Shown piece by piece: positions 2 through 15,482 of a stretch of 64,000 bases of DNA. The DNA comes from Caulobacter sp. FWC26 (lineage in GTDB: Bacteria > Pseudomonadota > Alphaproteobacteria > Caulobacterales > Caulobacteraceae). Where the stretch lies: positions 2,582,001-2,646,000 of the forward strand of contig NZ_CP033875.1 of NCBI RefSeq assembly GCF_002742645.2, given 5' to 3'. The position numbers and the translations under genes are program-made. Under the pieces are notes generated by a model that worked only from the letters and a program-made list of their open reading frames with translations, was not told the DNA's origin and made no database searches. Position 1 is the first letter of the stretch. Each line of letters begins with the position of its first letter.

Positions 2-1219
2 ACGTTCCGATCAGCCACCGCCGAGGATGTACGCCTGTACGAGCGGGCCGAAGCGGCGCTAGCCGAGGCGGAGCTGGCGGGAGAAGTGCTGATCCCAGAG
101 GATGGGATCGATACCTCGGGATGGTCGGACGAGCGATTGAGCGCTTACGGATATGGCCGCTGGCGGGACCTGTTCAACGCCCGGCAACTCCTGCATTTGG
201 GTCTCCTCGCCAAGGAAATCTCCCGCCTCGATCAGCCTCTACGCGGCGCGGTGGCGATGGCGTTCAGCGACCACCTGACCACCAACTGCATGATGGCGTC
301 CTATGCCGGGGGCTGGCGACGTCTGACGCCTTTGTTCTCCTTGAGGGCTTTTCGGCACATCCAGCGCCCGGTCGAACTCAATCCCTGGGTCGAGCGGGCG
401 GGACGCGGCACCTTCCCGAATGCGATCCGCAAGCTGACTTCGGCGGCGGCCTACGCCAGAAGCCCCAAGGAACCGGTCGGCGCCAAGGCCTTCATCGAGG
501 TCCCGACGCGCGCCCATCAGAGGGTCAACCAGATCCACATGGGAACAGCGAGCAATCTCGCCTTTCTGGAGACCGGGTCCATCGATGTCGTGATGACGGA
601 TCCACCCTACTTCGACAATATCGCCTACTCCGAGCTGGCGCGGTTCTTCGGACCCTGGCTCAAGGGCCTGGATGTGCTCGATGCCCGCGAACAGCAGGAC
701 ATCCTGGCCAACAGCCTAGTCGCAAACAAGTCGCGGGCCGGCAGCGTCGAGCGCTACACCGAAGGCCTGGGCCATGCGTTCGAAGAGATCGCCCGCGTGT
801 TGAAGTCCGATGGCATTGTCGCGTTCTCCTACCGACATACCGACGCGCCCGCCTGGCTGGCGCTTGCGGAGGCCATAGCGCGCACCGATTTGCGGATTAC
901 CAGCGTCCTGCCCATGCCCGGCGAAGCAGGCAGCGGCCTGCATGCGCAGGGTGATCGAGGCCTGTGGGACGCGGTGTTCGTTTTGCGGCATGGCGCAGGC
1001 CCCACACCCGTCCTGGGTGTGAGCGACAAGGATGTCGCCGTTGTTGAGGCCGAGGTTTCCGGATGGCTCGCCCGGTATGGCGAACTGGCCCTTCCATTCA
1101 ATGCGATCGACGCGGCGGCGCTTCGAAGGGCGGCTTTGGTCGGCAAGGCGTTGTCGCCAACCCGAAGACAGGACGACTCGAAGCTGATCGCGCTTGAGGA
1201 CGCGCTGCGACGACCCTAG
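2..1219 (+). CDS. DUF1156-type DNA methyltransferase, 3' part
   Basis: The reading frame is open from the left edge, so the gene begins upstream and only its C-terminal ~405 residues are seen. It carries the amino-methyltransferase motif IV DPPYFDNIAYSE near base 600, followed by the rest of a Rossmann methylase fold (RVLKSDGIVAFSYRHTD) and a C-terminal FVLRH strand. This matches the C-terminal half of large DUF1156 / Zn-ribbon DNA methylases, which modify adenine or cytosine in DNA and usually sit in anti-phage gene clusters. The next gene starts about 28 bases downstream on the same strand, so the two are probably co-transcribed. Which base is methylated, and the N-terminal domains, cannot be told from this fragment. 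Confidence 0.8.
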   Translation, partial: TFRSATAEDVRLYERAEAALAEAELAGEVLIPEDGIDTSGWSDERLSAYGYGRWRDLFNARQLLHLGLLAKEISRLDQPLRGAVAMAFSDHLTTNCMMASYAGGWRRLTPLFSLRAFRHIQRPVELNPWVERAGRGTFPNAIRKLTSAAAYARSPKEPVGAKAFIEVPTRAHQRVNQIHMGTASNLAFLETGSIDVVMTDPPYFDNIAYSELARFFGPWLKGLDVLDAREQQDILANSLVANKSRAGSVERYTEGLGHAFEEIARVLKSDGIVAFSYRHTDAPAWLALAEAIARTDLRITSVLPMPGEAGSGLHAQGDRGLWDAVFVLRHGAGPTPVLGVSDKDVAVVEAEVSGWLARYGELALPFNAIDAAALRRAALVGKALSPTRRQDDSKLIALEDALRRP

Positions 1220-1247: not shown

Positions 1248-4200
1248 GTGCCGTATCTAAGCAAACGCGTCGTTAGCAATTACTTCCGGACTGACTGCCC
1301 ACGTCAGCTGCGCCTGCTCCTTTCGCCTGAAAACAAGCAGTATCAACCGGAACGGGACGCACAGGGCATGCCGCCCAAAACGGTCGCCCGTGCTGGTATG
1401 GCGGCGCTGACGCAGGAAGGCGGCCGTTGGGAGCAGGACAAGCTGAAGGATCTGCAGGCAACCTTCGGCGCGGCGGCCGTCGTTGGCGTCGTCACCGGCT
1501 CCGACTTCCAGGACCAGAAGCTGCAGACTGTCATGCCCAACGCCCAGCCGGGCGTTTTTCTGGTCAGGCCTGCGTTCGAAGTGGGGGCAGCCTTTCAGTC
1601 CGCCATCGGCATTGACGCCCTGGCGGTCACCTACGGCCTAGGATTTGCCAGGCTGGTGCCGGACCTGATCCAGGTAATTGGTCCAGCGGAGGTGGGCCGC
1701 ATCGTGGAGGCCGATGGCTCAGTCCACGACGCGGACGGTCGGATTGGCTTGCGCGTCATCGACATCAAAATGACCGCCGAGCCTAGCGCCTCCTATTTCG
1801 CGGAAATCACCTACTACTCGCTGGCGCTCGCTGGCTGGCTCACCGACAACGGTTTTGCCGACCGATACGCGGTCGTCGCCGAGGCGGCCATCTGGCCGGG
1901 GTCGCATGAAGCCGCAGCGATCGTGCGACTGCAGGCCGACCGGCAGAAGGCCGGGACCACGGCGAGCGCACAGGATCTGGCAATCGCCCTGGCCGAAGAT
2001 ATCGAGACCCTCGAGATCGATGTCTTCGCTCCCCGTCTCAGGCACTTCTTCGTCGTCGAGTTGCCGCAGGTTCTCGCCAGCCCCTGGAAGAATCTCGACT
2101 GGCACGTGAGCACCGCGTGCAGTGGATGCGAATACCTAGGCTATGTGTGGAACGCGACGACACAGGAAAACCCTGATCATTGCATGCCCATGGCCAGGGC
2201 GCAGGGCCATCTTAGCTCGATCGCTTTCCTGCCCCGTGGCGCCCGGCGCGCGCTCGGCGACCGCAACATCAACACCACCGGCTCACTGGCGCCGCTGCAG
2301 GCGGACGACGCGGCTTTCGACTGCCACCCCAAACTGCGCGCGACTAGAACGGTGGTTGCTGGTCGCGCGCAGTCGTTGGCGAGTGGCAGCAGCGCAATTC
2401 CGGCGGGGTCGGGGACGTCGGCGGTCATCCCAAATTGGGCGGACCTCAATCTTTATCTGTCGGCCGACTTCGACCTGGGAAGCGGCCTCACCCTGGCCTT
2501 CGGGGTCGGCGGACACTCTTCGATCAACGGGCAGCGAGAGAAGATTGAAGCGCAGGTGTTCGTGAACGACACGCGAAGTGTCCAAAGCGAAACCCGTGAA
2601 CTGTTGAATTTCCTGGCCTATCTCGAGAAGGCGTTTTCCGACGCGACCAAGGCGAACGCCGACGCCACGGTTCAAATCTACATCTGGGATACCGTCACCT
2701 ACGAGCACCTCTTGCGGGTAATCGGCCGCAACCTTCAGCACGTTCTAGCCGATGGCAGCCTGAAGAAGCTTGCCTGGTTGTTTCCGCCTGAAGAGATCAT
2801 CGAGAACGCCAAGTTGCGCTCGGTGAACGCGCCGATCACCATCGTTCGCAACGCGGTCCAAGCGCTCGTCGCTGCGCCGATCCCCCACTACTATTCGCTT
2901 CTCGAATTGGCGCGAAAATACCCGCCGCCGGTGAAGCCGGGGGGCACGCCGTTCGAGTTCCGCGTCCCGGTAATCTTCGAAGATCCGCTCTCCGACCAAG
3001 TCCCCTCGGAAAGAGCGCATGAAATCTGGACCCGCATGGGCCAGCCCCGTCCTTGGAGTCAGCAGGTCACCCAGCTGCGCTCGACGGTGATCACCAAGCT
3101 TAGAGCCTTGCATTCGGTCATGTGGCGGCTTCGCGTCGACCTGCAGGGCCGCCTAAGCAGTCGTGCACCGAAGATCTCGGACATCAAACCGCCGGCATCG
3201 CTGCGGGGCGTGAGCGCCGATGGACAGGTCTGGTATGCGTTTGCGGGCCTTAATGCGCAGGTCGCCAGCCTGGAGCACGGCATCGCCCTGGCAATGCCCG
3301 TCCATGAACGAGAAGCGCGGTATCTGGCCGCCCGGCTTGACGCGGAGCTGATGGGAACAGATCTCGCGGCGGCGGCCAAAACGCTCGGCGTCATGCTGCG
3401 CCCCGGCGTAAGAATCTATACGCTGGCGGAGGGCTCCAGGGAGGCGAAGTTCGAGGAGGGCGAGTTCCTCTGCGCGCTCTCGCCCGCGTCGGAGGCCGGC
3501 TTTTATTCCCGGCGCCTCAACGACTTCACTGGCGGAACGCCATTGCCGCAGAACCTTCCGTACTGGATCCGTGAGTTTGGATCTCCGGGAAAGTTGACGG
3601 CGACGCAGATCGTCGCGATCGATCGCGATGCCCGCCTCGTCGCCGTAGCGTTCAAGCCGGAGGTCGACGCCTTCCTGAGACAGATCGAATCCTCGCTAGA
3701 TCTCCGGCGCGACGTCGTGCTCGACAAGCAGGTCCAGGATTTCCTGACCGACAGGCTGGAGGCGGCGCTCAAGGCCATTGGCAATCCGCCTCTGGCGATC
3801 AGCGCTGGCGCGCCCACCGCCAATGTCATCGGCAAGGCTGCGCCCAAAACCGCAACGGCTCATGTGCCGGTGGCGGACGTGCTCTGGGATACAAAGAACA
3901 CCGCGCTGGCCGCAACTGGCAGGAATGCGACGGCAGCTCGGGCCACGCTGGAAACGCTGGGCATTGAGCTCAACGACAGCCAGTGGGATGCTTGGCGCGA
4001 AGCGATGGAAAAGCGCCTCGCGCTCATCTGGGGGCCGCCGGGCACGGGCAAGTCGCAGACCCTGCGGGCCATTCTAATGGGGCTGCTGCTTGAGGCGCAC
4101 GCCGCCGGCAAGGTCATCCGCATCCTGGTGACCAGCAACACCTACGACGCGACCGACAACGTCGTGTTGCGCACGTTCGACCAGATCTTAAAGCTCGGTG

Positions 4201-5456
4201 CGGCGACGACCGGTGCGGTCAGGCTGGCCCGTCTACGATCGGATTCGAAGGAAGATGCGCCCGGTCTGCCGGTTGGCGTCAATCTTCACAACGACAAGGC
4301 CGAGCCGGGCGTCCACCACCTGCATGATCTGCTGAGCGGCCGGACGATGTCTGCGATCGTGTCGGCTCCTCCCCAACAGGTGACCAAGTTCGCGGGCATC
4401 AAAGGGGGCAGCGTCGCGCAACCACTTTTCGATATTGTGCTGATCGACGAGGCCTCGCAGATGGACATGGCCAGCGCGGTGCTGGCCCTCGCGCCGCTCG
4501 CGGCTGGCGGATCGGCGATCGTCGTGGGCGATCCCAAGCAGTTGCCCCCGATCCAGGCGGTCCAGGCGCCGCTCGGCCTCGAGTCGCTCGTTGGGTCGGT
4601 CTACGAATTTCTGGCGAACCATCGTGGGGTGGCCTCGAAGGACTTGCTCGAAAACTATCGCTCGAACAAGGAAATCGTCGGCCTCGGCCGTTTCGCCGGA
4701 TATCCGGCCGGTCTCACCGCGCGGTTTCCCGATCTTCGCATGCGGGTTGAAAGCCCCCTCCCCTTGGCCGTCCCAACGGACTGGCCATCGAGCCTCGCAT
4801 TCGATCCGGCGATTGCGCGGCTCTTGGAGCCCACCCAGCCGATTTCTGCCTTCATCTATCCGGAAGGCCGCAGCAGCCAATGGAACGATTTTGAGGCCCA
4901 GGTCGTGGCTTCGTTGCTCTGGATGTTGCGAGGCCACTTGGGCTCAGGCCTGCGGGGCGATCCCGATGCCGCCGGTACAGGGGTGCACGACGCGAAGAGC
5001 TTCTGGACCACGGCTGTTGGCGTGGTCACTCCTCACCGGGCCCATAAGGCTCTCGTGGTGTCCAAACTGCAGGCGCTTTTCGAGCCCCTCGGTGACGACC
5101 GCAGCCTCATTCGCGATGCGGTGAACACGGTTGAGCGGTTTCAGGGTCAGCAGCGCGACGTGATCATCGCCAGCTACGCGCTGGGCGATCCGGACGCGAT
5201 CGCGGATGAGGACGAGTTCCTGTTGTCGCTCAATCGCTTCAACGTGATGGCCTCGCGCCCTCGGGCCAAGCTCATTGTGTTGGCAAGCCAGGAGGTGATC
5301 AATCACCTGCCCGGCGATTTGGAAGTCATGCGCGATTCCCGGCTTCTGAAATACTTCGCCGAGACCTTCCTGAACGATCGCAGCGCCTGCGATATTCCGT
5401 TCAGGGATGGCCCGAACCTTGGAGTGAAGAGCGGCTCGTTCCGAAGCCGCAAATAG
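1248..5456 (+). CDS. RecB-like nuclease / superfamily 1 helicase fusion protein
   Basis: 1402 residues. I chose GTG 1248 because AAAAGGGGAG lies just before it; an earlier TTG at 1194 would overlap the methylase. Residues ~1-330 resemble a RecB/Cas4-type nuclease: Cys17, then a CSGC pair near 291-294 and a Cys near 312 form a possible iron-sulfur staple, and the VIDIKM stretch near 171 fits the PD-(D/E)XK core. Residues ~400-560 look like a YprB-type RNase H-like domain. The C-terminus (~900-1390) is a DNA2/UPF1-type helicase, with GPPGTGKS near 928, LIDEASQ near 1066, VVGDPKQLPP and VERFQGQQRDV. The layout recalls TM0106-family nuclease-helicases. Paired with the methylase, a role in degrading unmodified invading DNA is inferred, not shown. 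Confidence 0.82.
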   Translation: MPYLSKRVVSNYFRTDCPRQLRLLLSPENKQYQPERDAQGMPPKTVARAGMAALTQEGGRWEQDKLKDLQATFGAAAVVGVVTGSDFQDQKLQTVMPNAQPGVFLVRPAFEVGAAFQSAIGIDALAVTYGLGFARLVPDLIQVIGPAEVGRIVEADGSVHDADGRIGLRVIDIKMTAEPSASYFAEITYYSLALAGWLTDNGFADRYAVVAEAAIWPGSHEAAAIVRLQADRQKAGTTASAQDLAIALAEDIETLEIDVFAPRLRHFFVVELPQVLASPWKNLDWHVSTACSGCEYLGYVWNATTQENPDHCMPMARAQGHLSSIAFLPRGARRALGDRNINTTGSLAPLQADDAAFDCHPKLRATRTVVAGRAQSLASGSSAIPAGSGTSAVIPNWADLNLYLSADFDLGSGLTLAFGVGGHSSINGQREKIEAQVFVNDTRSVQSETRELLNFLAYLEKAFSDATKANADATVQIYIWDTVTYEHLLRVIGRNLQHVLADGSLKKLAWLFPPEEIIENAKLRSVNAPITIVRNAVQALVAAPIPHYYSLLELARKYPPPVKPGGTPFEFRVPVIFEDPLSDQVPSERAHEIWTRMGQPRPWSQQVTQLRSTVITKLRALHSVMWRLRVDLQGRLSSRAPKISDIKPPASLRGVSADGQVWYAFAGLNAQVASLEHGIALAMPVHEREARYLAARLDAELMGTDLAAAAKTLGVMLRPGVRIYTLAEGSREAKFEEGEFLCALSPASEAGFYSRRLNDFTGGTPLPQNLPYWIREFGSPGKLTATQIVAIDRDARLVAVAFKPEVDAFLRQIESSLDLRRDVVLDKQVQDFLTDRLEAALKAIGNPPLAISAGAPTANVIGKAAPKTATAHVPVADVLWDTKNTALAATGRNATAARATLETLGIELNDSQWDAWREAMEKRLALIWGPPGTGKSQTLRAILMGLLLEAHAAGKVIRILVTSNTYDATDNVVLRTFDQILKLGAATTGAVRLARLRSDSKEDAPGLPVGVNLHNDKAEPGVHHLHDLLSGRTMSAIVSAPPQQVTKFAGIKGGSVAQPLFDIVLIDEASQMDMASAVLALAPLAAGGSAIVVGDPKQLPPIQAVQAPLGLESLVGSVYEFLANHRGVASKDLLENYRSNKEIVGLGRFAGYPAGLTARFPDLRMRVESPLPLAVPTDWPSSLAFDPAIARLLEPTQPISAFIYPEGRSSQWNDFEAQVVASLLWMLRGHLGSGLRGDPDAAGTGVHDAKSFWTTAVGVVTPHRAHKALVVSKLQALFEPLGDDRSLIRDAVNTVERFQGQQRDVIIASYALGDPDAIADEDEFLLSLNRFNVMASRPRAKLIVLASQEVINHLPGDLEVMRDSRLLKYFAETFLNDRSACDIPFRDGPNLGVKSGSFRSRK

Positions 5457-5494: not shown

Positions 5495-6403
5495 TCACCC
5501 CCGCTCGGAAAACCGCTCGAAGGCGGTGATCCGGCGGGGAGCGAGGTCGGGGTCGTAGCCGTAGATCTCCTGGGCAAGGAAGAGGAGTTCGGACTCGCGG
5601 TCGGCTTCGGCGACGTCGATGAACCAGGCCTTGGGGCCGGTGGCGTCGTCGCCGTTCCAGCGGTAGCCGCGGACCTTTAGCTTGTCCTTCTGCTCGAACG
5701 GCGAGTTGGTGGCGACAATGCGCCAGGTCGGGGACCGCGCGGCCTGCAGGAGGTGGGCCAGGGCCGTGCGGCCGTCGCTCAAGGGGCGGCCGAGGACCTC
5801 CAAGCCGGCCAGGCAGTCGTTCTCGGCGCGGTGGCCGTCGAAGAAGAAACCACACCGGCTGGCGAGGGTGGAGAGCCGGGTCCCTTCGGCCCCCTCCCCT
5901 TTCCAATCGACCTGGCTCATCGAGCAGGCCCAGCCCTTGAGCTTGAAGGCCTCGGTCAGGCGCTCGGCGAACGGGCGGTCGAAGGCGGCGTTGTGGGCGA
6001 TAACGATCACAGCCTCGGCGATGAAGGCGGCGACCTCTTCGGGATCGATCGCCCGGCCCTCGACCATGGCGTCGGTGATGCCGGTGATCTGGGTCACCTC
6101 GGCCGGGATCGGCTTGGACGGCTGGCTGAGCGCCACGAACGGGGCGTGGACCGCGCAGAGGCGGCCGTCTGGGTCGTAGTCGAACGGGACCATGGCCAGT
6201 TCGATGATCTCGTCGCGGCGGGTGTCCACGCCCGTGGTCTCGGTGTCCAGATAAATCCCGCGTTTGAGGCTGGCGGGGTCGGCGCCGACGTGCAGGGTAC
6301 AGGCCTCGAATCTGCGCAGTAGGCGATAGCGGCCGCTGGCTTCCAGCTGGGCGGCCATAGCCTCCAATCTAGCGAGGTCAGAGTCTGTCGGGAGATCGAG
6401 CAT
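5495..6403 (-). CDS. DnaQ-like 3'-5' exonuclease (DEDDh family)
   Basis: 302 residues from the ATG at 6403; an upstream in-frame start exists, but the added 59 residues do not look like protein. The DEDDh exonuclease motifs are clear: YLDTETTGVD (Exo I), AHNAAFDRPFAE (Exo II) and HRAENDCLAG (Exo III, with H and D). About 95 residues follow the nuclease domain, containing KLKVRGYRWNGD, a segment I recall from DnaQ-like proteins of alphaproteobacterial mobile DNA. It would remove nucleotides from DNA 3' ends, perhaps for repair or proofreading. It is convergent to the helicase-nuclease gene. Whether it belongs to the defence module, the ICE or neither is open. Confidence 0.8.
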   Translation of the reverse strand: MLDLPTDSDLARLEAMAAQLEASGRYRLLRRFEACTLHVGADPASLKRGIYLDTETTGVDTRRDEIIELAMVPFDYDPDGRLCAVHAPFVALSQPSKPIPAEVTQITGITDAMVEGRAIDPEEVAAFIAEAVIVIAHNAAFDRPFAERLTEAFKLKGWACSMSQVDWKGEGAEGTRLSTLASRCGFFFDGHRAENDCLAGLEVLGRPLSDGRTALAHLLQAARSPTWRIVATNSPFEQKDKLKVRGYRWNGDDATGPKAWFIDVAEADRESELLFLAQEIYGYDPDLAPRRITAFERFSERG

Positions 6404-6629: not shown

Positions 6630-7040
6630 TCAGGTTTCGGCCTCGTGATCCTGCAGCACCTCTGCGCGCAATAGTCGGCCAGACGCCAGCCTACGCGAAA
6701 GCGCCTCTAGGAACCCCACATATCGCTCCTGCCCCTTCGCGTTCTGGGCCTTCTGATCGCCCGCGGCCAGGGCCGGAGTCGCTGTCAGCCAGGCCTTCAC
6801 GAACAGAGCGATCGCCTCGTTGGAGATCGTGAGGTCACGGCCGAGCCGTTCCAACTCCCTGCTCATCCGATCTAGACGCCGGGTAACTGCAGCTTCTGCT
6901 GCCTCGTCCGCGTCCGGCGAAAGATAGGCCGCTACAGCTGCCTGGACGATCTCCGACTTTGACCGCCTCATCCGCTTTGAGGCCGCGTCCAACGCCAGCG
7001 AAAGATCCCGTGCCAAAAAGACCTTCGTCTGAATCTTCAC
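6630..7040 (-). CDS. CopG/ribbon-helix-helix family protein of a conjugation operon
   Basis: 136 residues. The first ~45 (MKIQTKVFLARDLSLALDAA followed by RSKSEIVQAAVAAYL) fit a ribbon-helix-helix DNA-binding fold, followed by a coiled-coil-like helical region. In ICEs and plasmids with the trb type IV secretion system, a CopG-family gene of this size lies between traG and trbB. Here it follows the traG-derived gene with an ATGA overlap (start 7040, upstream stop 7037-7039), exactly that arrangement. However, trbB and the rest of the trb operon are absent downstream, replaced by 226 bases without a gene and the exonuclease. It may still act as a repressor of its operon, but its usual target genes are gone. 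Confidence 0.72.
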   Translation of the reverse strand: MKIQTKVFLARDLSLALDAASKRMRRSKSEIVQAAVAAYLSPDADEAAEAAVTRRLDRMSRELERLGRDLTISNEAIALFVKAWLTATPALAAGDQKAQNAKGQERYVGFLEALSRRLASGRLLRAEVLQDHEAET

Positions 7041-8623
7041 AGCGGGATCCCATCATCGGGATCAAGCGCCGCGATCCGGGCCGCAGCCCTGAACCGGCGC
7101 GACTGCTCGGCTTGGACGGACTCGTCGGCGTCCAGGTCAGGCTCAACTTCAGGCTCGACAGGATCCGCATCCATGGCGTCGGCCACCGGGGCATCGAGTT
7201 CCGGCTCGAGGCGAAGGCCGCCCTCGCTCGCGTCTTCAGCCGATCCACCCGTTCCATGGATGCGTGCCGCCGCGATGGCGGCCCAGGCCGACACCTCGGC
7301 CGGCACCAGGATCGAGGGCTTGCGCGGCGGACTCGAAACCCGAAGCTTTAGATCCTGGTCCAGATAATAGCGGACCTTGCTGGCCCGGATCGGAGCCACG
7401 CCGGAGACCTGAACGAGCGCCTCGTCGGCAGGCAGCTGCATCACCTCGCCCGGCGTCAGCAGCGGCCTGGCCGTCTCTTGGCGACTGACCATCAGGTGGC
7501 CAAGCCACGGCGACAGCCGGTGCCCGGCGTAGTTCTTCATGGCCCGCATCTCGGTGGCGGTGCCGAGACTGTCGCTGATCCTGCGCGCGGTGCGCTCGTC
7601 GTTTGTCGAGAACGCGACCCGCACGTGGCAGTTATCGAGGATCGAATTGTTCTCCCCGTACGCCTTTGCAATCTGGTTCAGGCTCTGCGCGATCAGGAAG
7701 GCCTTGATGCGGTATCCCGCCATGAACGCCATGGCCTGCTCGAAGAAGTCGAGCCGCCCCAGCGCCGGAAACTCGTCCAGCATCAGCAGTAGACGGGGCC
7801 GATGGCGCGCCAACTCCAGACCTTCCGTCAGCCGGCGGCCGATCTGATTGAGGATCAGCCGGATCAACGGCCGCGTGCGGCTAATGTCCGACGGCGGCAC
7901 GACCAGATAGAGCGTCACCGGCCGCCCAGGCGTGACGAGGTCGTCGATCCACCAGTCGCAGCGGGAGGTGACCGCAGAGACGATGGGATCGCGGTAGAGC
8001 CCCAGAAAGCTCATCGCCGTGGACAGGACGCCTGATCGCTCGTTTTCGCTCTTGTTCAGCAGCTCGCGAGCAGCGCTGGCGACGACGGGATGGACGCGGT
8101 CACCCAGGTGCGGGGTAGCCATCATGGCCCGCAGGGTCGCTTCGATCGTCCTGCGCGGATCGGCCAGGAAGTTGGCCACACCGGCTAGCGTCTTGTCCTC
8201 TTCGGCGTAGAGAACGTGAAGGATCGCTCCGACCAGAAGGCTGTGGCTGGTCTTATCCCAATGCGACCTTCGCTCTAGAGCGCCGTCGACCACGCACCGG
8301 ACCGGCGCGCCCTTGGCCAGCGCCTTGCGCTTGGCCAGCAGGCGCAAGGCTTGGCGGCGCCCCTCCCCCGCGCTGACGAGATAATAGCCGGTCTCGCGTC
8401 CATCCTTGAACTCGGGCTCGACGACGAGCGGCTGAAGCACGCCCTTGTGGCTGATCGAAGCGGCGCGGGACTCGATCACCTCGGCGCTATGGCCGACGCG
8501 GCGGACGTTCTTGGGCGAGGCCTTGAGGCGGTTGAGGGGGATGTCGCGGACTTCGCCGTACTGGACGACGAGGCCCGCCGGGGTCTGGGCCGCTTGCGGG
8601 GCCGGGGTTTGCTGGGTGGTCAT
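7037..8623 (-). CDS. Chimeric ParB N-terminus / TraG (VirD4) coupling protein C-terminus
   Basis: 528 residues in one open frame. Residues ~20-113 are a ParB/Spo0J-type N-terminal domain (IPLNRLKASPKNVRR, HKGVLQPLVVEP, YYLVSAGEGRRQALRLL). At about residue 114-118 (near base 8275-8285) the similarity switches to the TraG/VirD4 coupling ATPase, starting at SHWDKTSHSLLVGAILHVLY and running to about residue 445. The coupling protein's N-terminal membrane helices and Walker A loop are missing, while the Walker B region LLLMLDEFPALGRL is kept. The fusion is best explained by an in-frame deletion removing everything between parB and the middle of traG. It cannot be an active coupling ATPase. It starts under the duplicated hairpin leader, with AAGGAGG before the ATG. 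Confidence 0.85.
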   Translation of the reverse strand: MTTQQTPAPQAAQTPAGLVVQYGEVRDIPLNRLKASPKNVRRVGHSAEVIESRAASISHKGVLQPLVVEPEFKDGRETGYYLVSAGEGRRQALRLLAKRKALAKGAPVRCVVDGALERRSHWDKTSHSLLVGAILHVLYAEEDKTLAGVANFLADPRRTIEATLRAMMATPHLGDRVHPVVASAARELLNKSENERSGVLSTAMSFLGLYRDPIVSAVTSRCDWWIDDLVTPGRPVTLYLVVPPSDISRTRPLIRLILNQIGRRLTEGLELARHRPRLLLMLDEFPALGRLDFFEQAMAFMAGYRIKAFLIAQSLNQIAKAYGENNSILDNCHVRVAFSTNDERTARRISDSLGTATEMRAMKNYAGHRLSPWLGHLMVSRQETARPLLTPGEVMQLPADEALVQVSGVAPIRASKVRYYLDQDLKLRVSSPPRKPSILVPAEVSAWAAIAAARIHGTGGSAEDASEGGLRLEPELDAPVADAMDADPVEPEVEPDLDADESVQAEQSRRFRAAARIAALDPDDGIPL

Positions 8624-8643
8624 GTCTGCCTCCTTGGGGGCTG

Positions 8644-8672
8644 GGGTTCAGGCGCAAGGCGCGCCTGAAACC
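8644..8672 (-). promoter_or_regulatory. Hairpin leader A just upstream of the ParB-TraG gene
   Basis: Arms TTCAGGCGC (8647-8655) and GCGCCTGAA (8661-8669) form a perfect 9-base-pair stem around a 5-base loop. On the minus-strand transcript it ends about 10 bases before the AAGGAGG ribosome-binding site. The same structure with compensated base changes precedes the DUF3768 gene at 11,091-11,120, so a role in translation or mRNA stability is plausible. Confidence 0.55.
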
Positions 8673-8824
8673 GGCGCCCGTCGGCGAGACCGGGGGTGCA
8701 AGCGGAGGGGCGGCTTCGCGGGGACCCGGCTGCAGGGCGTCCTTGACGGCGTCCCGCTCTTCACGCGTCGCCCGAAGCTGGGCGGAAGCCGATCCAAAGC
8801 GCGCCGGGGGCGGAGCCCCAAGCC
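8647..8824. repeat. Dispersed repeat, copy A (leader of ParB-TraG gene)
   Basis: Two blocks (about 8647-8737 and 8773-8824) are nearly identical to 11,093-11,183 and 11,198-11,249. Copy A carries about 35 extra bases between the blocks where copy B has about 14. Both copies lie directly 5' of a minus-strand ICE gene, with the hairpin end next to the start codon. I see no protein-coding evidence in the repeat. Confidence 0.8.
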
Positions 8825-8931
8825 ACCCGGCCGCGCAAGCGGCCGGCGACAAGGACAAGGCGTGTTTTCTGCGAGCCGCGCGTTTCGGGCAGGCACCTAC
8901 CGCGACATGACCTCGCCGCCCGCCAATCGGA

Positions 8932-9115: not shown

Positions 9116-9811
9116 ATGGCCCGGAAGACCAAGACCTCGGACGACGACTGGCGCGCGGCCTTCACCCTGGCCCTGGTGGAAACCGCCGTGCGCAATTCCC
9201 GGCTCGAGGAACTGCACACGGGGATCTCGCCCGAGAGCGCCACGGGCGATTACAGCGACGTGAAGGTGGTGACGCCCTACGGCGACATCCCCTGGGCGCG
9301 CCTTTCGAGACTGGACGACGAGGAGATGAAGGCGCTGATGATCGAAGTGGTCGATCGCGTCTACACCGTGCTCACCCATCCAGAACCCTTCATGATGCTG
9401 ATGGGCGCTCAGTCCTGGAACCGGCCAGCCCTTGACCCGGCCATGATGGACGCCGTCGCGCGCCACCGGGCCAAGGCGCGAGGCGTCTCGCGCGAGGACA
9501 TTTGGCGCACCTGGCCGCTCGACGAGACCAAGCTGCGCCCGCCCCTCCGTCGCGAAGCGTTGGCCGTCTCCGATCGGGGTGAGAGCGACGCCGAGGCCGC
9601 CGCTGAAGACGAAGCGCTACACCTGTCGACTGCGGAGGGTGAGATCTCGCCTGAGACCCTGCGCCGGCTGGCCGAGAACCCCGTGACCGACGCGGCCTGG
9701 ATCGCCAAGGTTCGGGAGGCCCTACGCACGGGCGCCGACGGGTGGGAGCGCGCTAACCTGGCTGTGCTCGATGAAATCGAGGCGGCGACCTACGGCCACG
9801 ACGAAAGGTGA
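9116..9811 (+). CDS. Hypothetical protein of ICE remnant
   Basis: 231 residues from ATG 9116; a longer frame back to 8948 runs into repeat DNA and is rejected. I do not recognise a domain. The first ~110 residues are well composed, with segments such as TPYGDIPWARLSRLDDEEMK and VVDRVYTVLTHPEPFM; a low-complexity acidic stretch lies at ~160-185 and a helical tail follows. No signal peptide or membrane segment is seen. It sits 56 bases upstream of the HU gene on the same strand and may share its transcript. The surrounding genes are ICE accessory families, so it is probably an ICE-borne protein too. Confidence 0.7.
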   Translation: MARKTKTSDDDWRAAFTLALVETAVRNSRLEELHTGISPESATGDYSDVKVVTPYGDIPWARLSRLDDEEMKALMIEVVDRVYTVLTHPEPFMMLMGAQSWNRPALDPAMMDAVARHRAKARGVSREDIWRTWPLDETKLRPPLRREALAVSDRGESDAEAAAEDEALHLSTAEGEISPETLRRLAENPVTDAAWIAKVREALRTGADGWERANLAVLDEIEAATYGHDER

Positions 9812-9867: not shown

Positions 9868-10146
9868 ATGAACGTTTCCGATCTCGTCGACGCCGCCATC
9901 GCCGCCGAACCCAAGCTGACCAAGACCCAGGCCAAGGCCATCATCGACGGCGTCTTCAAGTCGCTGACCGAAGCGGCCGTGAAGGGCGAGGAAGTCTCGA
10001 TCCCAGGCTTTGGCAAGTTCAAGGTCCAGGCCAAGCCCGCCCGCACCGGCCGCAATCCCTCGACCGGGGCCACCATCGAGATCGCCGCCAGCAAAAAGGT
10101 CGCCTTCACGCCGGCCAAGCAGCTGAAGGACGCCGTCAACGGATGA
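9868..10146 (+). CDS. HU-family DNA-binding protein
   Basis: 92 residues from ATG 9868, preceded by CAGGAG; the upstream in-frame start at 9808 has no such site. The sequence is a full HU/IHF fold: N-terminal helices (MNVSDLVDAAIAA, LTKTQAKAIIDGVFKSL), the SIPGFGKFKV turn, the DNA-intercalating arm with ARTGRNPSTG containing the conserved RNP, and the KKVAFTPAKQLKDAVN tail. It bends and compacts DNA as a dimer. This copy is separate from the core ihfA at 31,516. It lies inside the ICE remnant, where an element-borne HU could serve recombination or silencing. Confidence 0.93.
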   Translation: MNVSDLVDAAIAAEPKLTKTQAKAIIDGVFKSLTEAAVKGEEVSIPGFGKFKVQAKPARTGRNPSTGATIEIAASKKVAFTPAKQLKDAVNG

Positions 10147-10735: not shown

Positions 10736-11068
10736 TCAGTATTCCTCGACCAACATCAGGGTCAGCACCCGCTTGGTCACGGCCGGGTCGGCCGGATCGG
10801 GCGAGGCCATGCACAGGTCCAGGTCGTAGTAGTCGATCTTCCAAAACAGGCGCTGGCCGCCCAGCTCGAACGCGCCAAAGTCACGCTCGCCGTGGGGGTT
10901 GTTGTCGTCGGTGAAGGCGTCGAAGTCCTTCACGGCGGCCACCAGGTGGCCCACGGCCGCCGCGCCCAGCGCCTGGACGCCGGCCGTTAGCATCCAGCCC
11001 GCGCCGGGCTCGGCCCGGCAGGCGTCATTCAAGGCCGCGATCGCGGCGACATGCTCTTGCTCGGTCAT
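10736..11068 (-). CDS. DUF3768 domain protein
   Basis: 110 residues from ATG 11,068 with GGAGAG just before it. The features of DUF3768 are visible: an N-terminal helix (IAALNDACR), a central block with HGERDFGAFELGGQRLFWKI around 58-77, and the YYDLDLCMASPDPADP motif with a conserved tail (RVLTLMLVEEY). The function of this family is unknown; it is common in alphaproteobacterial ICEs and plasmids, next to anti-restriction and ParB genes. It starts directly under repeat copy B with its strong hairpin, the same arrangement as the ParB-TraG gene. Confidence 0.85.
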   Translation of the reverse strand: MTEQEHVAAIAALNDACRAEPGAGWMLTAGVQALGAAAVGHLVAAVKDFDAFTDDNNPHGERDFGAFELGGQRLFWKIDYYDLDLCMASPDPADPAVTKRVLTLMLVEEY

Positions 11069-11090
11069 CGAAGTCTCTCCTCAGGGGTTC

Positions 11091-11120
11091 GGGGTCAGGC
11101 GCAAAGGCGCGCCTGACCCC
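11091..11120 (-). promoter_or_regulatory. Hairpin leader B just upstream of the DUF3768 gene
   Basis: GGGGTCAGGCGC (11,091-11,102) and GCGCCTGACCCC (11,109-11,120) form a perfect 12-base-pair stem with a 6-base loop, ending about 10 bases before the GGAG ribosome-binding site. Compared with leader A, a T-A pair is replaced by G-C, so pairing is kept while sequence changes. Confidence 0.6.
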
Positions 11121-11249
11121 GGCGCCCGTCGGCGAGACCGGGTGTGCAAGCGGAGGGGCGGCTTCGCGGGGACCCGGCTGCAGGCCGCGCCAGCGGCCGA
11201 AGCTGGGCGGAAGCCGATCCGAAGCGCGCCGAGGGCGGAGCCCTAAGCC
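11093..11249. repeat. Dispersed repeat, copy B (leader of DUF3768 gene)
   Basis: Nearly identical to 8647-8737 and 8773-8824 in two blocks (11,093-11,183 and 11,198-11,249), same orientation relative to the downstream gene. The shared DNA includes GGCGCCCGTCGGCGAGACCG and GAAGCTGGGCGGAAGCCGAT. It is probably a common leader or promoter module of the mobile element. Confidence 0.8.
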
Positions 11250-11559
11250 GCGCGGCCACCAGGCCGCCCACCAAGATGAAGCCTGCAAGGAGCCCGCGCA
11301 CTGCGCGTGGCGGGAAGCGGCGTCGAGCCGCCGGCGGCAGGCCAAGGCCTGCCCGCAGGGTCGCGCCCGAGGGAGCGGCGAAAGCCGCGGGACCGAGCGT
11401 GACCGCCGGGGGCTCACCCGACGCCGAAGGCGCGCAGGCTCGCCGAAAGGCGAGCCGGAGCCAGGCGTTGGAACCGCCGAACGCCTGTCTTTGCACGCCA
11501 GGGTACGAACGAAGCGACATCGACTTTGCGGTCGTGGGCGATCAGCGCAAGCCTATCGC
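11250..11559 (+). other. Gene-free region rich in GAAA-capped hairpins, possible structured RNA
   Basis: No convincing gene lies between repeat B and the 71-codon gene. Instead there is a run of hairpins: GCGGC-GAAA-GCCGC at 11,375-11,388; CGCC-GAA-GGCG at 11,422-11,432; GGCTCGCC-GAAA-GGCGAGCC at 11,437-11,456; and CAGGCGTT with AACGCCTG at 11,462-11,487, followed by TCTTT. GNRA-type loops read on the plus strand suggest that the plus-strand RNA is the structured form. No known RNA family is recognised, and the function is unknown. Confidence 0.4.
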
Positions 11560-11795: not shown

Positions 11796-13466
11796 ATGGC
11801 CAAACGCAAGACGCCTCCTCCGCCCGCCCTGCCCAGCGCGGCGCTCTATCTTCGGGTCTCGACCGGACGGCAGGCCGAAAGCGACCTGTCCATTCCCGAC
11901 CAGGGCCGCCAGCTGCGCGCCTATTGCGAGGCCAAGGGCTGGCCCATCGCCGAGGAGTTCATCGAGCCGGGCAACACGGCCACGGACGACAAGCGTCCGG
12001 CCTTCCAGAGAATGATCGATGCCGGCCTGACCAAGCCGCCGCCGTTCCACGTCATCCTGGTCCACTCGTTCTCACGCTTCTTCCGCGACCAGTTCCTGTT
12101 TGAGTTCTACGCCCGCAAGCTGGCCAAGAACGGCGTGCGCATCGTGTCGATCACCCAGGAGGTCGGCGACGACCCGATGGGGGTGATGGTGCGGCAGATG
12201 ATGAACCTCTTCGACGAGTACCAGTCGCGGGAGAATGCCAAGCACACCTTGCGGGCCATGAAGGAGAATGCCCGCCAGGGCTTCTGGAACGGCTCGCATC
12301 CCCCGCTGGGCTATCGCGTGGTGGCCGCCGAGCAGCGTGGCGATCGCGTGAAAAAGAGGCTGGAAGTCGATCCCATCGGGGCCGAGACCGTACGCAAGAT
12401 CTTCCGCCTGGCGCTCAACGGCATCGACGGCAGCGGCCCGATGGGCGTCAAGGCGATCGCCACCTATCTCAATGACAACCACATCTACACACGCGGCGGC
12501 GGACGCTGGGGCGTCGGCACGGTGCATCACACCCTGACGCGCACCAGCTACATCGGCGAGCACCGGTTCAACACGCGCCACTACAGAAGCCAGGAACAGA
12601 AGGAGGCTTCCGAGGCGGTGATCATGCCGGTTCCCGCGCTGATCGACCAAGAGACCTTCGACGCCGTGCAGCGCGCCATGTCGCGGCGCAATCCAAGGGC
12701 CATGCCACCAAGGTTCGTCACCAGCCCGATCTTGCTGGGCGGGATCTGCTTCTGCGGCCTATGTGGCAAGGCCATGACCCTGCGCACCGGCAAGGGCGGC
12801 GCCTATCGCTACTACACCTGCTGCACCAAGGCCCGCCAGGGAACCGCCGGCTGCGACGGCATGGCGGTGCGCATGGACATGCTCGACGCCACGGTTATCG
12901 ATCACCTGGAGAATCGCCTGCTCAATCCCGAGCGTCTGGCGACGATGATGGACAACATCCTCGACCGACGCTCCGAGTGGATCGAGCGCCGCCACCGCCA
13001 TGTCGGCGACCTGCGCAAGCGGGCGACAGAAGCCAACCAGCGCCTTCAAAGACTCTTCCAGTCCATCGAACACGGCATCGCGGATCCCACCGACCGGACG
13101 CTGAAACAGCGGATCGCGGAACTCACCTCGATCCGCGACGCGGCCGAGGGCGACGCTGAACGGGCGGCGGCGGCGATCGACAAGATCACGCCCGCCCTGA
13201 CCCCCGACCTGCTGCGCCGCTTCGCGGAAGCCACGCGCGAGATGTTCAGAAGCGCGGATGGCGCCTATCGGCGCGACTTGATCCGGGCCGTCGCGCAGAA
13301 GGTTGAACTGGTGTCCCCAATGGAGGTCCGCATCTGCGGATCGCGGGTGGAACTGCTGCGCACCATCGCGTCGAACAACGGCGTAGAATCGGCGGCTCTA
13401 GCGGTGCCGGGTTTTGTACGGGATTGGCGCGCCCTGCAGGATTCGAACCTGCGACCGTTCGCTTAG
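11796..13466 (+). CDS. Large serine recombinase / integrase
   Basis: 556 residues from ATG 11,796, with AGGGA upstream. The N-terminal catalytic domain has YLRVSTGRQ with nucleophile Ser22, SIPDQGRQLRAYC and the arginine-bearing HSFSRFFRDQF. Then comes the recombinase domain (~195-310, GSHPPLGYRVV, HHTLTRTSYIGEHRF), a zinc ribbon near 320-360 (CFCGLCGKAM and CCTKARQGTAGC) and a coiled-coil (~395-470). These are the parts of a site-specific integrase that inserts and excises mobile DNA. The last codons read through 42 bases of the tRNA-Arg gene on the opposite strand, giving the tail LQDSNLRPFA, which places the attachment site there. Very likely it mobilised this island. Confidence 0.92.
   Translation: MAKRKTPPPPALPSAALYLRVSTGRQAESDLSIPDQGRQLRAYCEAKGWPIAEEFIEPGNTATDDKRPAFQRMIDAGLTKPPPFHVILVHSFSRFFRDQFLFEFYARKLAKNGVRIVSITQEVGDDPMGVMVRQMMNLFDEYQSRENAKHTLRAMKENARQGFWNGSHPPLGYRVVAAEQRGDRVKKRLEVDPIGAETVRKIFRLALNGIDGSGPMGVKAIATYLNDNHIYTRGGGRWGVGTVHHTLTRTSYIGEHRFNTRHYRSQEQKEASEAVIMPVPALIDQETFDAVQRAMSRRNPRAMPPRFVTSPILLGGICFCGLCGKAMTLRTGKGGAYRYYTCCTKARQGTAGCDGMAVRMDMLDATVIDHLENRLLNPERLATMMDNILDRRSEWIERRHRHVGDLRKRATEANQRLQRLFQSIEHGIADPTDRTLKQRIAELTSIRDAAEGDAERAAAAIDKITPALTPDLLRRFAEATREMFRSADGAYRRDLIRAVAQKVELVSPMEVRICGSRVELLRTIASNNGVESAALAVPGFVRDWRALQDSNLRPFA
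13425..13466. other. Candidate attachment site (recombinase/tRNA overlap)
   Basis: The recombinase coding sequence ends 42 bases inside the 3' half of tRNA-Arg. Mobile elements often use tRNA 3' ends as attachment sites and restore them on insertion; a second copy of part of this segment should mark the other island end, left of this window. I found no second copy of GATTCGAACCTGCGACC-type sequence in bases 1-13,400. Confidence 0.5.
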
Positions 13467-13501
13467 AAGGCGAATGCTCTATCCAACTGAGCTAAGGGCG
13501 C
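13425..13501 (-). tRNA. tRNA-Arg (anticodon TCT)
   Basis: A 77-base cloverleaf on the minus strand: acceptor GCGCCCT with AGGGCGC, discriminator G and encoded CCA; anticodon stem TTCGC/GCGAA around loop CTTCTAA; T-arm GGTTCGAATCC. It reads AGA codons. The island lies on its 3' side and the recombinase gene overlaps its 3' half, so it is the probable integration site. Confidence 0.97.
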
Positions 13502-15288: not shown

Positions 15289-15363
15289 TGGCAGTCCCTA
15301 GGGGAGTCGAACCCCTCTCTCCAGATTGAAAATCTGGCGTCCTAACCGATAGACGAAGGGACC
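15289..15363 (-). tRNA. tRNA-Glu (anticodon TTC), copy 1
   Basis: A 75-base cloverleaf on the minus strand: acceptor GGTCCCT pairs with AGGGACT (terminal G-T), encoded CCA, anticodon stem CCAGA/TCTGG around loop TTTTCAA, and T-arm GGGGTTCGACTCCCC. Identical to the next copy. Confidence 0.97.
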
Positions 15364-15407: not shown

Positions 15408-15482
15408 TGGCAGTCCCTAGGGGAGTCGAACCCCTCTCTCCAGATTGAAAATCTGGCGTCCTAACCGATAGACGAAGGGACC
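15408..15482 (-). tRNA. tRNA-Glu (anticodon TTC), copy 2
   Basis: Same 75-base sequence as the copy at 15,289-15,363, with 44 bases between them. The pair is transcribed in the same direction and probably as one precursor. Confidence 0.97.

Follow-up and report, generated by a model that had tools for sequence, protein, structure and literature searches.

How does a single open reading frame come to consist of the beginning of a parB-type gene and the end of the gene for a TraG/VirD4 coupling ATPase, and is its frame open by chance or by selection? The question is raised by a locus of Caulobacter sp. FWC26, studied here within a stretch of 64,000 nucleotides (the window). The original prediction for positions 6630-8623 described an in-frame ParB-TraG chimera of 528 residues. 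That interval holds a CopG-like gene (6630..7040) besides the chimera, and the chimera itself is real: the ORF, the Pfam domains and the same-genome matches agree.

The ParB-TraG chimera and its parent element

The chimeric ORF (7037..8623, minus strand; read from homology and the ORF itself) starts with ATG and encodes 528 aa. Its ParB-derived part (8288..8623, minus strand) was predicted to span the first ~113 residues; DNA alignment and codon count give 112 codons, ending at a site termed B1 (TGCGTGGTC|). The TraG-derived part (7037..8287, minus strand) runs from TraG residue 236 to the end and begins at site T1 (|GAC GGC GCT CTA GAG). In DNA alignment with an intact relative the switch of partner falls at 8286-8288, and the codon count puts it at 8288|8287. 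By homology, chimera residues 113-528 correspond to the C-terminal 416 residues of an IncP-type TraG, which begin at residue 236; TraG residues 1-235 are missing. When the chimera is read against intact TraG, what we take to be the Walker A motif and the membrane helices both fall within the missing 235 residues, in keeping with their predicted absence. Pfam finds ParB_N at chimera residues 24-95 with 24.5 bits (slightly below the cut-off of 26.3) and T4SS-DNA_transf (PF02534) at residues 117-432 with 218.7 bits, entering the profile at position 142. PF12696 scores 99.8 bits, showing that the C-terminal TraG part is present. HTH_ParB and later ParB domains were not detected in the chimera; the intact ParB-like ORF of the same genome has HTH_ParB as well. 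The same-genome matches are 86% for the TraG part to intact TraG and 82% for the ParB part to the intact ParB-like ORF.

The NCBI model for the TraG subfamily (NF010450) scores the chimera at 674.1 against a cut-off of 674, above it by 0.1 bit. The chimera may therefore be misnamed TraG, as is P0005, the corresponding protein of a second genome (G072). NCBI annotation would call it a conjugal transfer protein, hiding the join. G072 is a single 4.14-Mb contig in which the same junction is found (P0005 is named Caulobacter vibrioides); the proposed search for the fusion in other genomes was thus answered. An assembly artefact, which the original prediction had named as the danger at the junction, is ruled out since the window lies inside a 4.5-Mb contig and the identical junction is repeated in G072.

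An intact relative of the parent element is located ~130 kb away in the same genome. Its TraG (own genome 2722332-2724281) and the matched part of its ParB-like ORF (own genome 2746135-2746473), both identified by homology, lie on the minus strand in the expected order, and window and relative share 79-80% DNA identity on either side of the junction. The prediction of an internal deletion joining two ICE genes at least 10 kb apart was right, because T1 and B1 are 22.6 kb apart in this relative. It was concluded that the chimera marks the place where 22.6 kb were deleted from the interior of a Tn4371-related integrative conjugative element (ICE). Four TraG loci of this element family, the window's included, are found in this genome. 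Between the two sites the intact copy carries genes for an RlxS-like relaxase (518.8 bits with the RlxS model, below its cut-off of 850), a lytic transglycosylase, a signal peptidase, DUF2840, HTH and DUF736 proteins. None of these genes turned up in the window element. With this block went the 5' part of traG and the 3' part of parB. The intact relative has relaxase, TraG and trb; the window copy, lacking the relaxase and TraG residues 1-235, is a deletion derivative of this kind. The further claim that the conjugation genes in between were lost holds for the relaxase and DNA-processing block and not for the trb operon (trbB, C, D, E, J, L, F, G, I and DUF2274), which is kept outside the window at -15657 to about -6570, looks complete and shares 80% DNA identity with its counterpart in the intact relative. 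The deleted element keeps trb and cargo; judged by its gene content, it would be unable to process its DNA or couple it for transfer.

Upstream of the chimera is the parB leader (8624..8844, minus strand), which has an RBS-like AAGGAGG and matches by homology the leader that precedes parB in the intact element. It belongs to a family of leader repeats of ~100-200 bp (window 8609-8832 and 11057-11257; own genome 2700445, 2746524 and 2761296) that precede parB and a DUF3768 gene and also lie near both ends of the intact element. A search for direct repeats found only these leader repeats near both ends of the own intact element. Rfam gave tRNAs and one sub-threshold match for the leader repeat, and no match for the window copies. 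Beside parB lie a conserved element gene of 231 aa (9116..9811, plus strand; comparison with the intact relative), the HU-family gene of the element (9868..10146, plus strand; Pfam and comparison) and the DUF3768 gene (10736..11068, minus strand; comparison), which has its own leader repeat at 11057-11257. On the other side, the copG gene (6630..7040, minus strand), encoding a ribbon-helix-helix protein with RHH_1 at only E 0.06, starts with a GTG that overlaps the TraG stop (GTGA). It is followed by genes for a DEDDh-type exonuclease (RNase_T by Pfam; 5495..6403, minus strand), a large helicase-type cargo protein (AAA_11/AAA_12 by Pfam; 1398..5456, plus strand) and a DNA methyltransferase, also cargo, with its 3' part in the window (Pfam, below cut-off; 86..1219, plus strand). 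The exonuclease gene adjoins the fusion in G072 also (L062 12253-13149, 59% identical); it has no match in the stretches of two intact elements checked. The deleted element's trb operon is separated from the start of the window by a Gabija-like GajB/GajA pair (608 and 614 bits; L017 14890-18848, which is window -5110 to -1152).

A large serine recombinase gene (11796..13466, plus strand) is a possible integration gene, linked to the element by its position only. Its frame enters tRNA-Arg(TCT) (13425-13501) in antisense and overlaps it at its end. The recombinase lies beside this tRNA gene, and no attachment-type direct repeats were seen at the ends of the window element. Exact direct repeats of at least 15 nt of the element-end kind were not found for the window element and G072 in the ranges searched, and a scan of nine stretches beyond the window revealed no tRNA genes near element ends. 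At window 15289-15363 and 15408-15482 stand two tRNA-Glu(TTC) genes, identical and in tandem. One of the two Ku genes of this genome (C3:2697458-2698342) is ~2 kb outside the left leader repeat of the intact element.

Recurrence of the T1 and B1 breakpoints

Site T1 has the form CCN|GAN before codon 236 of traG, and the TraG part then begins (D/E)GALERR. Eleven TraG 3' parts, the window's included, start at T1, and the ten besides the window's are each nearest to a different intact TraG. Ten of the eleven (again with the window's own) are among the 120 matches listed, of 8000 scored proteins, in a search with the chimera, and have a non-TraG or near-absent N-terminus before T1. The ParB partner joined at codon 112 or its equivalent, i.e. 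the B1-T1 join, accounts for 4 of the 11 (the window protein, P0002, P0005 and P0007). P0020 joins a later ParB codon to T1, P0083 and P0084 a DUF736 domain (PF05284), and P0067 and P0098 N-termini without a Pfam match. P0072 has only five residues before T1 and could be a small deletion inside TraG. In G010 the T1 start is seen at the DNA level, directly after a copy of the element's non-coding leader. The automatic aligner runs one or two residues into the partner for P0067, P0083 and P0084. Of 24 automatic "fusion" calls, 9 were counted as T1 and 15, with other breakpoints or frameshift-like by eye, were not; P0072 was taken from the "truncated" list. P0265, a frameshift at T1 by eye, was excluded from the count, and P0168 and P0206 (other genera by their place in the list), in which the TraG match starts no more than ~5 codons from T1, were also judged frameshifts by eye. 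A second search, of shorter proteins only, added no case counted as exact among 110 new entries.

Placed on a tree of 113 TraG 3' parts, the 11 junctions require 11 changes, 10 of them forced by supported branches (a quick method, in which P0067 has a long branch and P0086, a ParB-TraG fusion with another joint, was labelled "intact"). The nearest intact TraG ranges from 100% (P0002/P0048) down to 76% identical. A CTA codon 10-12 nt from the junction is shared by the window and four intact relatives (the own copy and L022-L024) and is lacking in G072; of 338 Leu codons counted in four genes of the intact copy, 12 are CTA.

Protein searches are complemented by a TraG probe of 200 aa across T1, run against 75 genomes of the genus, which found 44 full-length loci of this family, 6 loci with a break within the span of the probe and one copy with a frameshift (G012). 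Four of the 6 breaks are at T1. In the window, G010 and G072 the TraG part begins there (the matches start one or two residues early), and in G009 the left half ends at T1 by DNA, though the match continues. The other two lie 2-5 codons (G059 C34) and ~49 codons (G014) from T1. If breaks fell uniformly over the 200 codons, 4 of 6 would hit one codon with a probability of about 2e-6. Left halves ending at the same codon are G009 and P0232 (one among 120 left-half proteins listed), both followed by unrelated sequence. T1 breaks were not found in two sister genera (101 and 131 genomes with 28 and 23 full-length loci; two further g20 matches end at contig ends), and the difference is not significant alone (4 of 50 loci in the window's genus, none of 51 in the sister genera; p = 0.056). 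Of 503 related loci in GTDB r220 the best 80 all span T1 intact, as does the single IMG/VR locus (81 of 81 further loci).

Site B1 has the form GTGGTC|GAY after codon 112 of parB, where the ParB reading ends after TGCGTGGTC in the window and after TGTGTGGTC in G072. Eight ParB loci of the family, counting the window, are broken early, half of them at B1 to the nucleotide: the window, G072, G074 C24 (L080) and G009 C44 (L081). TraG follows B1 in the window and G072, and unrelated DNA in G074 and G009; that in L080 has no Pfam name. P0002 and P0007 agree with B1 at the protein level. The right half of this ParB gave no match in G009, G072 or G074. The other early breaks lie ~8 codons before B1 (G074 C27) and 16-25 codons after it (G013, G035 and G059). 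The latter three form a second break zone after DENxSR|, ending at the same codon in G013 (L083) and G035 (L084) and one codon later in G059 (L064). The G013 break stands head to head with TraG near codon 443, and the G059 break is a direct join to TraG near codon 435-440.

DNA-level evidence at T1 or B1 comes from the window, G072, G010, G009 and G074, and the remaining junctions, most of those at T1, are known from protein only, several of them metagenomic. The same joint recurs in independent copies at both T1 and B1, to the nucleotide where DNA is available. A full-length match to the chimera occurs in 2 of 390 family genomes, the window's own included (scoring was confined to the top three candidates in each genome). 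GTDB r220 contigs outside the window genome yielded nothing with a degenerate junction pattern, and a second full-length fusion was found neither in viral contigs nor among the plasmid matches listed. These counts speak against a two-domain protein family common in unrelated genomes, named in the original prediction as what would overturn it.

The open frame and the origin of the breaks

Both B1 and T1 are on codon boundaries (phase 0), so the joint is always in frame, and this alone accounts for the open frame. G059 joins other sites of parB and traG, likewise in frame; all three genomic ParB-TraG joints (window, G072 and G059) are therefore open (chance 1/27, p = 0.04), and selection on the frame is weakly suggested. 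The CopG overlap that had been called usual for traG was confirmed in part: traG TGA and copG GTG overlap as GTGA in the window and in its intact relative, by letters also in G001, and possibly in G072 (4 of 6 copies), and the copG ATG lies 10 nt beyond the traG stop in G010 and 7 nt beyond it in G059. Ribosomes that enter at the parB start would traverse the traG 3' part to the overlapping or adjoining copG start, and the frame may be kept so that CopG, a likely T4SS repressor, stays expressed. In Bradyrhizobium copG1, downstream of traG1, is reported to repress trbE1 and traG1 outside symbiosis (PMC11201211). Given this repression of T4SS genes and the copG start at the traG stop, retention of the frame for copG translation is a reasonable proposal. 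The open frame may thus matter mainly through translation that ends at the copG start.

The chimera itself is probably not a working coupling ATPase, since Walker A and the membrane helices are missing. At 217 columns conserved among 100 intact TraG proteins the window copy has no changes, as is the case for P0002, P0007, P0072 and P0084, and P0067 has 13, the highest of the copies. Fusions average 2.5 changes against 0.8 in intact proteins, and as a set they do not differ clearly from these (p = 0.09; P0086 omitted). The window copy carries R225W at a position that hardly varies (at least 90% conservation in another alignment). By these comparisons, sequence constraint does not decide on function. 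Structure models from the same 42 rows gave pLDDT 49.5 for the chimera and 62.3 for intact TraG, both poor and different only in degree, so that they say little about the chimera.

A single ordinary microhomology deletion, with the matching breakpoints elsewhere due to coincidence or search artefact, could be read from the 2-4 bp common at the junction, which are typical of such events. traG deletions with other joints do exist (P0053, P0086, two G059 loci, G003 and G014), and protein searches reveal in-frame joints only. The genome search, however, is blind to frame and yet placed 4 of 6 breaks at one codon. B1 is used exactly with unrelated partners, and the tree asks for eleven independent placements; we consider this account unlikely. 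Less probable again is one old ParB-TraG fusion that was inherited or spread and had its TraG part replaced later through recombination with intact elements. The identical join in the window, P0002, P0005 and P0007 fits it, as does the co-residence of elements of this family (the four TraG loci of this genome), and the weakly resolved tree of the ParB N-domain permits one origin for five of six B1 copies. Such replacement has to contend with lineage-specific TraG letters that begin at the junction codon (D or E) or within 10-12 nt of it, and with the variety of partners at T1, which include DUF736, further N-termini and non-coding sequence. The ParB part of P0007 moreover groups with the B2-broken G059 copy (99/98), away from the other B1 copies.

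Selection may instead have favoured the chimera as a protein, with the all-alpha domain of TraG carried on the ParB N-domain and, for example, hindering the coupling of related elements in the cell. The same in-frame product occurs four times, five copies are unchanged at the 217 columns, and an intact relative is ~130 kb away. Against this, T1 follows non-coding DNA in G010 and unrelated N-termini in other copies. P0067 and the window's R225W show change at conserved positions, several copies are too near intact TraG for constraint after the deletion to show, and confidence in the model is low; we think it improbable, a little more so than the ordinary deletion. Were T1 a site at which a mobile element attaches or inserts, or a recombinase acts, with deletions as by-products, this would agree with left and right halves that end at the same codon, with the large serine recombinase in the window and with a gene near the G010 junction that we take to be IS110-like. 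The partners vary, though, and have no core in common with T1, and a site-specific recombinase is disfavoured because matching cores would be needed. traG split by an insert at T1 was not seen in the three genera searched or in the 81 further loci, and exact direct repeats at the element ends were lacking in window and G072, as given above. This reading we rate as low as that of an old fusion.

Repeated fixed-site breakage with end joining is favoured because it fits all cases, including the four B1-T1 joints. The element would be broken at T1 and B1 by a putative sequence-specific nuclease or another site-bound process, and the free ends would then be joined to each other or to any available end, mostly in hosts that carry Ku. 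Ku is encoded in 7 of 8 genomes examined and is absent in G072. T1 and B1 share 0-1 bp to the left of the cut and 2-3 bp to its right, and this similarity at the same offset is of chance level (in 8 elements, between 16% and 75% of in-frame position pairs reach such a score). Without similarity beyond chance, a single recognition sequence cannot explain both sites. Homologous recombination is unlikely since sequence common to both sites is missing, and simple microhomology is insufficient since the same sites are reused. A word TGGTCGA(T), common to T1 and B1 in 5 of 8 elements, is displaced by 6 nt and would not yield the observed joint. A serine-recombinase GA core fits the four ParB joints and fails for L080, L081 and G009. 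Hairpins at T1 are not consistent across 6 elements; the parB stretch to the left of B1 ranks in the top 1-8% of 40-nt windows for stability in all 5 elements compared.

Taken as a whole, the best explanation is a deletion scar with reused T1 and B1 sites, arising from fixed-site breakage and end joining, its frame perhaps kept for copG; we hold it to be somewhat likelier to be right than wrong. The step from recurrent breaks to a nuclease is one that we infer. A sequence- or structure-specific cutter borne by Caulobacter-type hosts or by rival elements, which destroys Tn4371-related elements at traG and parB sites as an anti-conjugation defence and leaves end-joined scars, is a tentative proposal and rather doubtful.

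Relation to known systems

Tn4371-related ICEs have been described (in the available parts of PMC2789088 and PMC11448139), and the intact relative and the remnant agree with the alpha types (RlxS relaxase, TraG, TrbBCDEJLFGI and ParB) in the genes they carry and in how these are arranged. The window copy differs in missing the block between traG codon 236 and parB codon 112. Those parts of the two papers do not mention recurrent exact breakpoints, and a small literature search found no description of T1 or B1 recurrence in the portions of papers available. The chimera resembles IncP-type TraG/VirD4 coupling ATPases (NF010450, PF02534) in its 416 C-terminal residues, including LLLMLDEF, which we take to be Walker B-like, and differs in having no membrane helices and no Walker A. 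It resembles ParB/RepB/Spo0J proteins in the N-terminal domain, where query residues 20-97 match the solved ParB 6t1f (presumably the Caulobacter protein), and differs in having no helix-turn-helix or later domains.

Mobile elements commonly leave deletion remnants, whose ends are usually regarded as haphazard. The remnant is like other decayed or defective elements, presumably of the kind termed dICE or CIME, in that conjugation is partly lost and cargo and trb are kept; taken alone it is ordinary. The remnant family differs from them in that independent copies decay at identical breakpoints, and this reuse of both breakpoints is not ordinary. Ends at the same nucleotide in independent copies point to cutting or recombination of these elements at fixed places. 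If the cutter is a nuclease of the host or a rival, it would represent a new layer of defence against conjugative elements that can be read from its scars.
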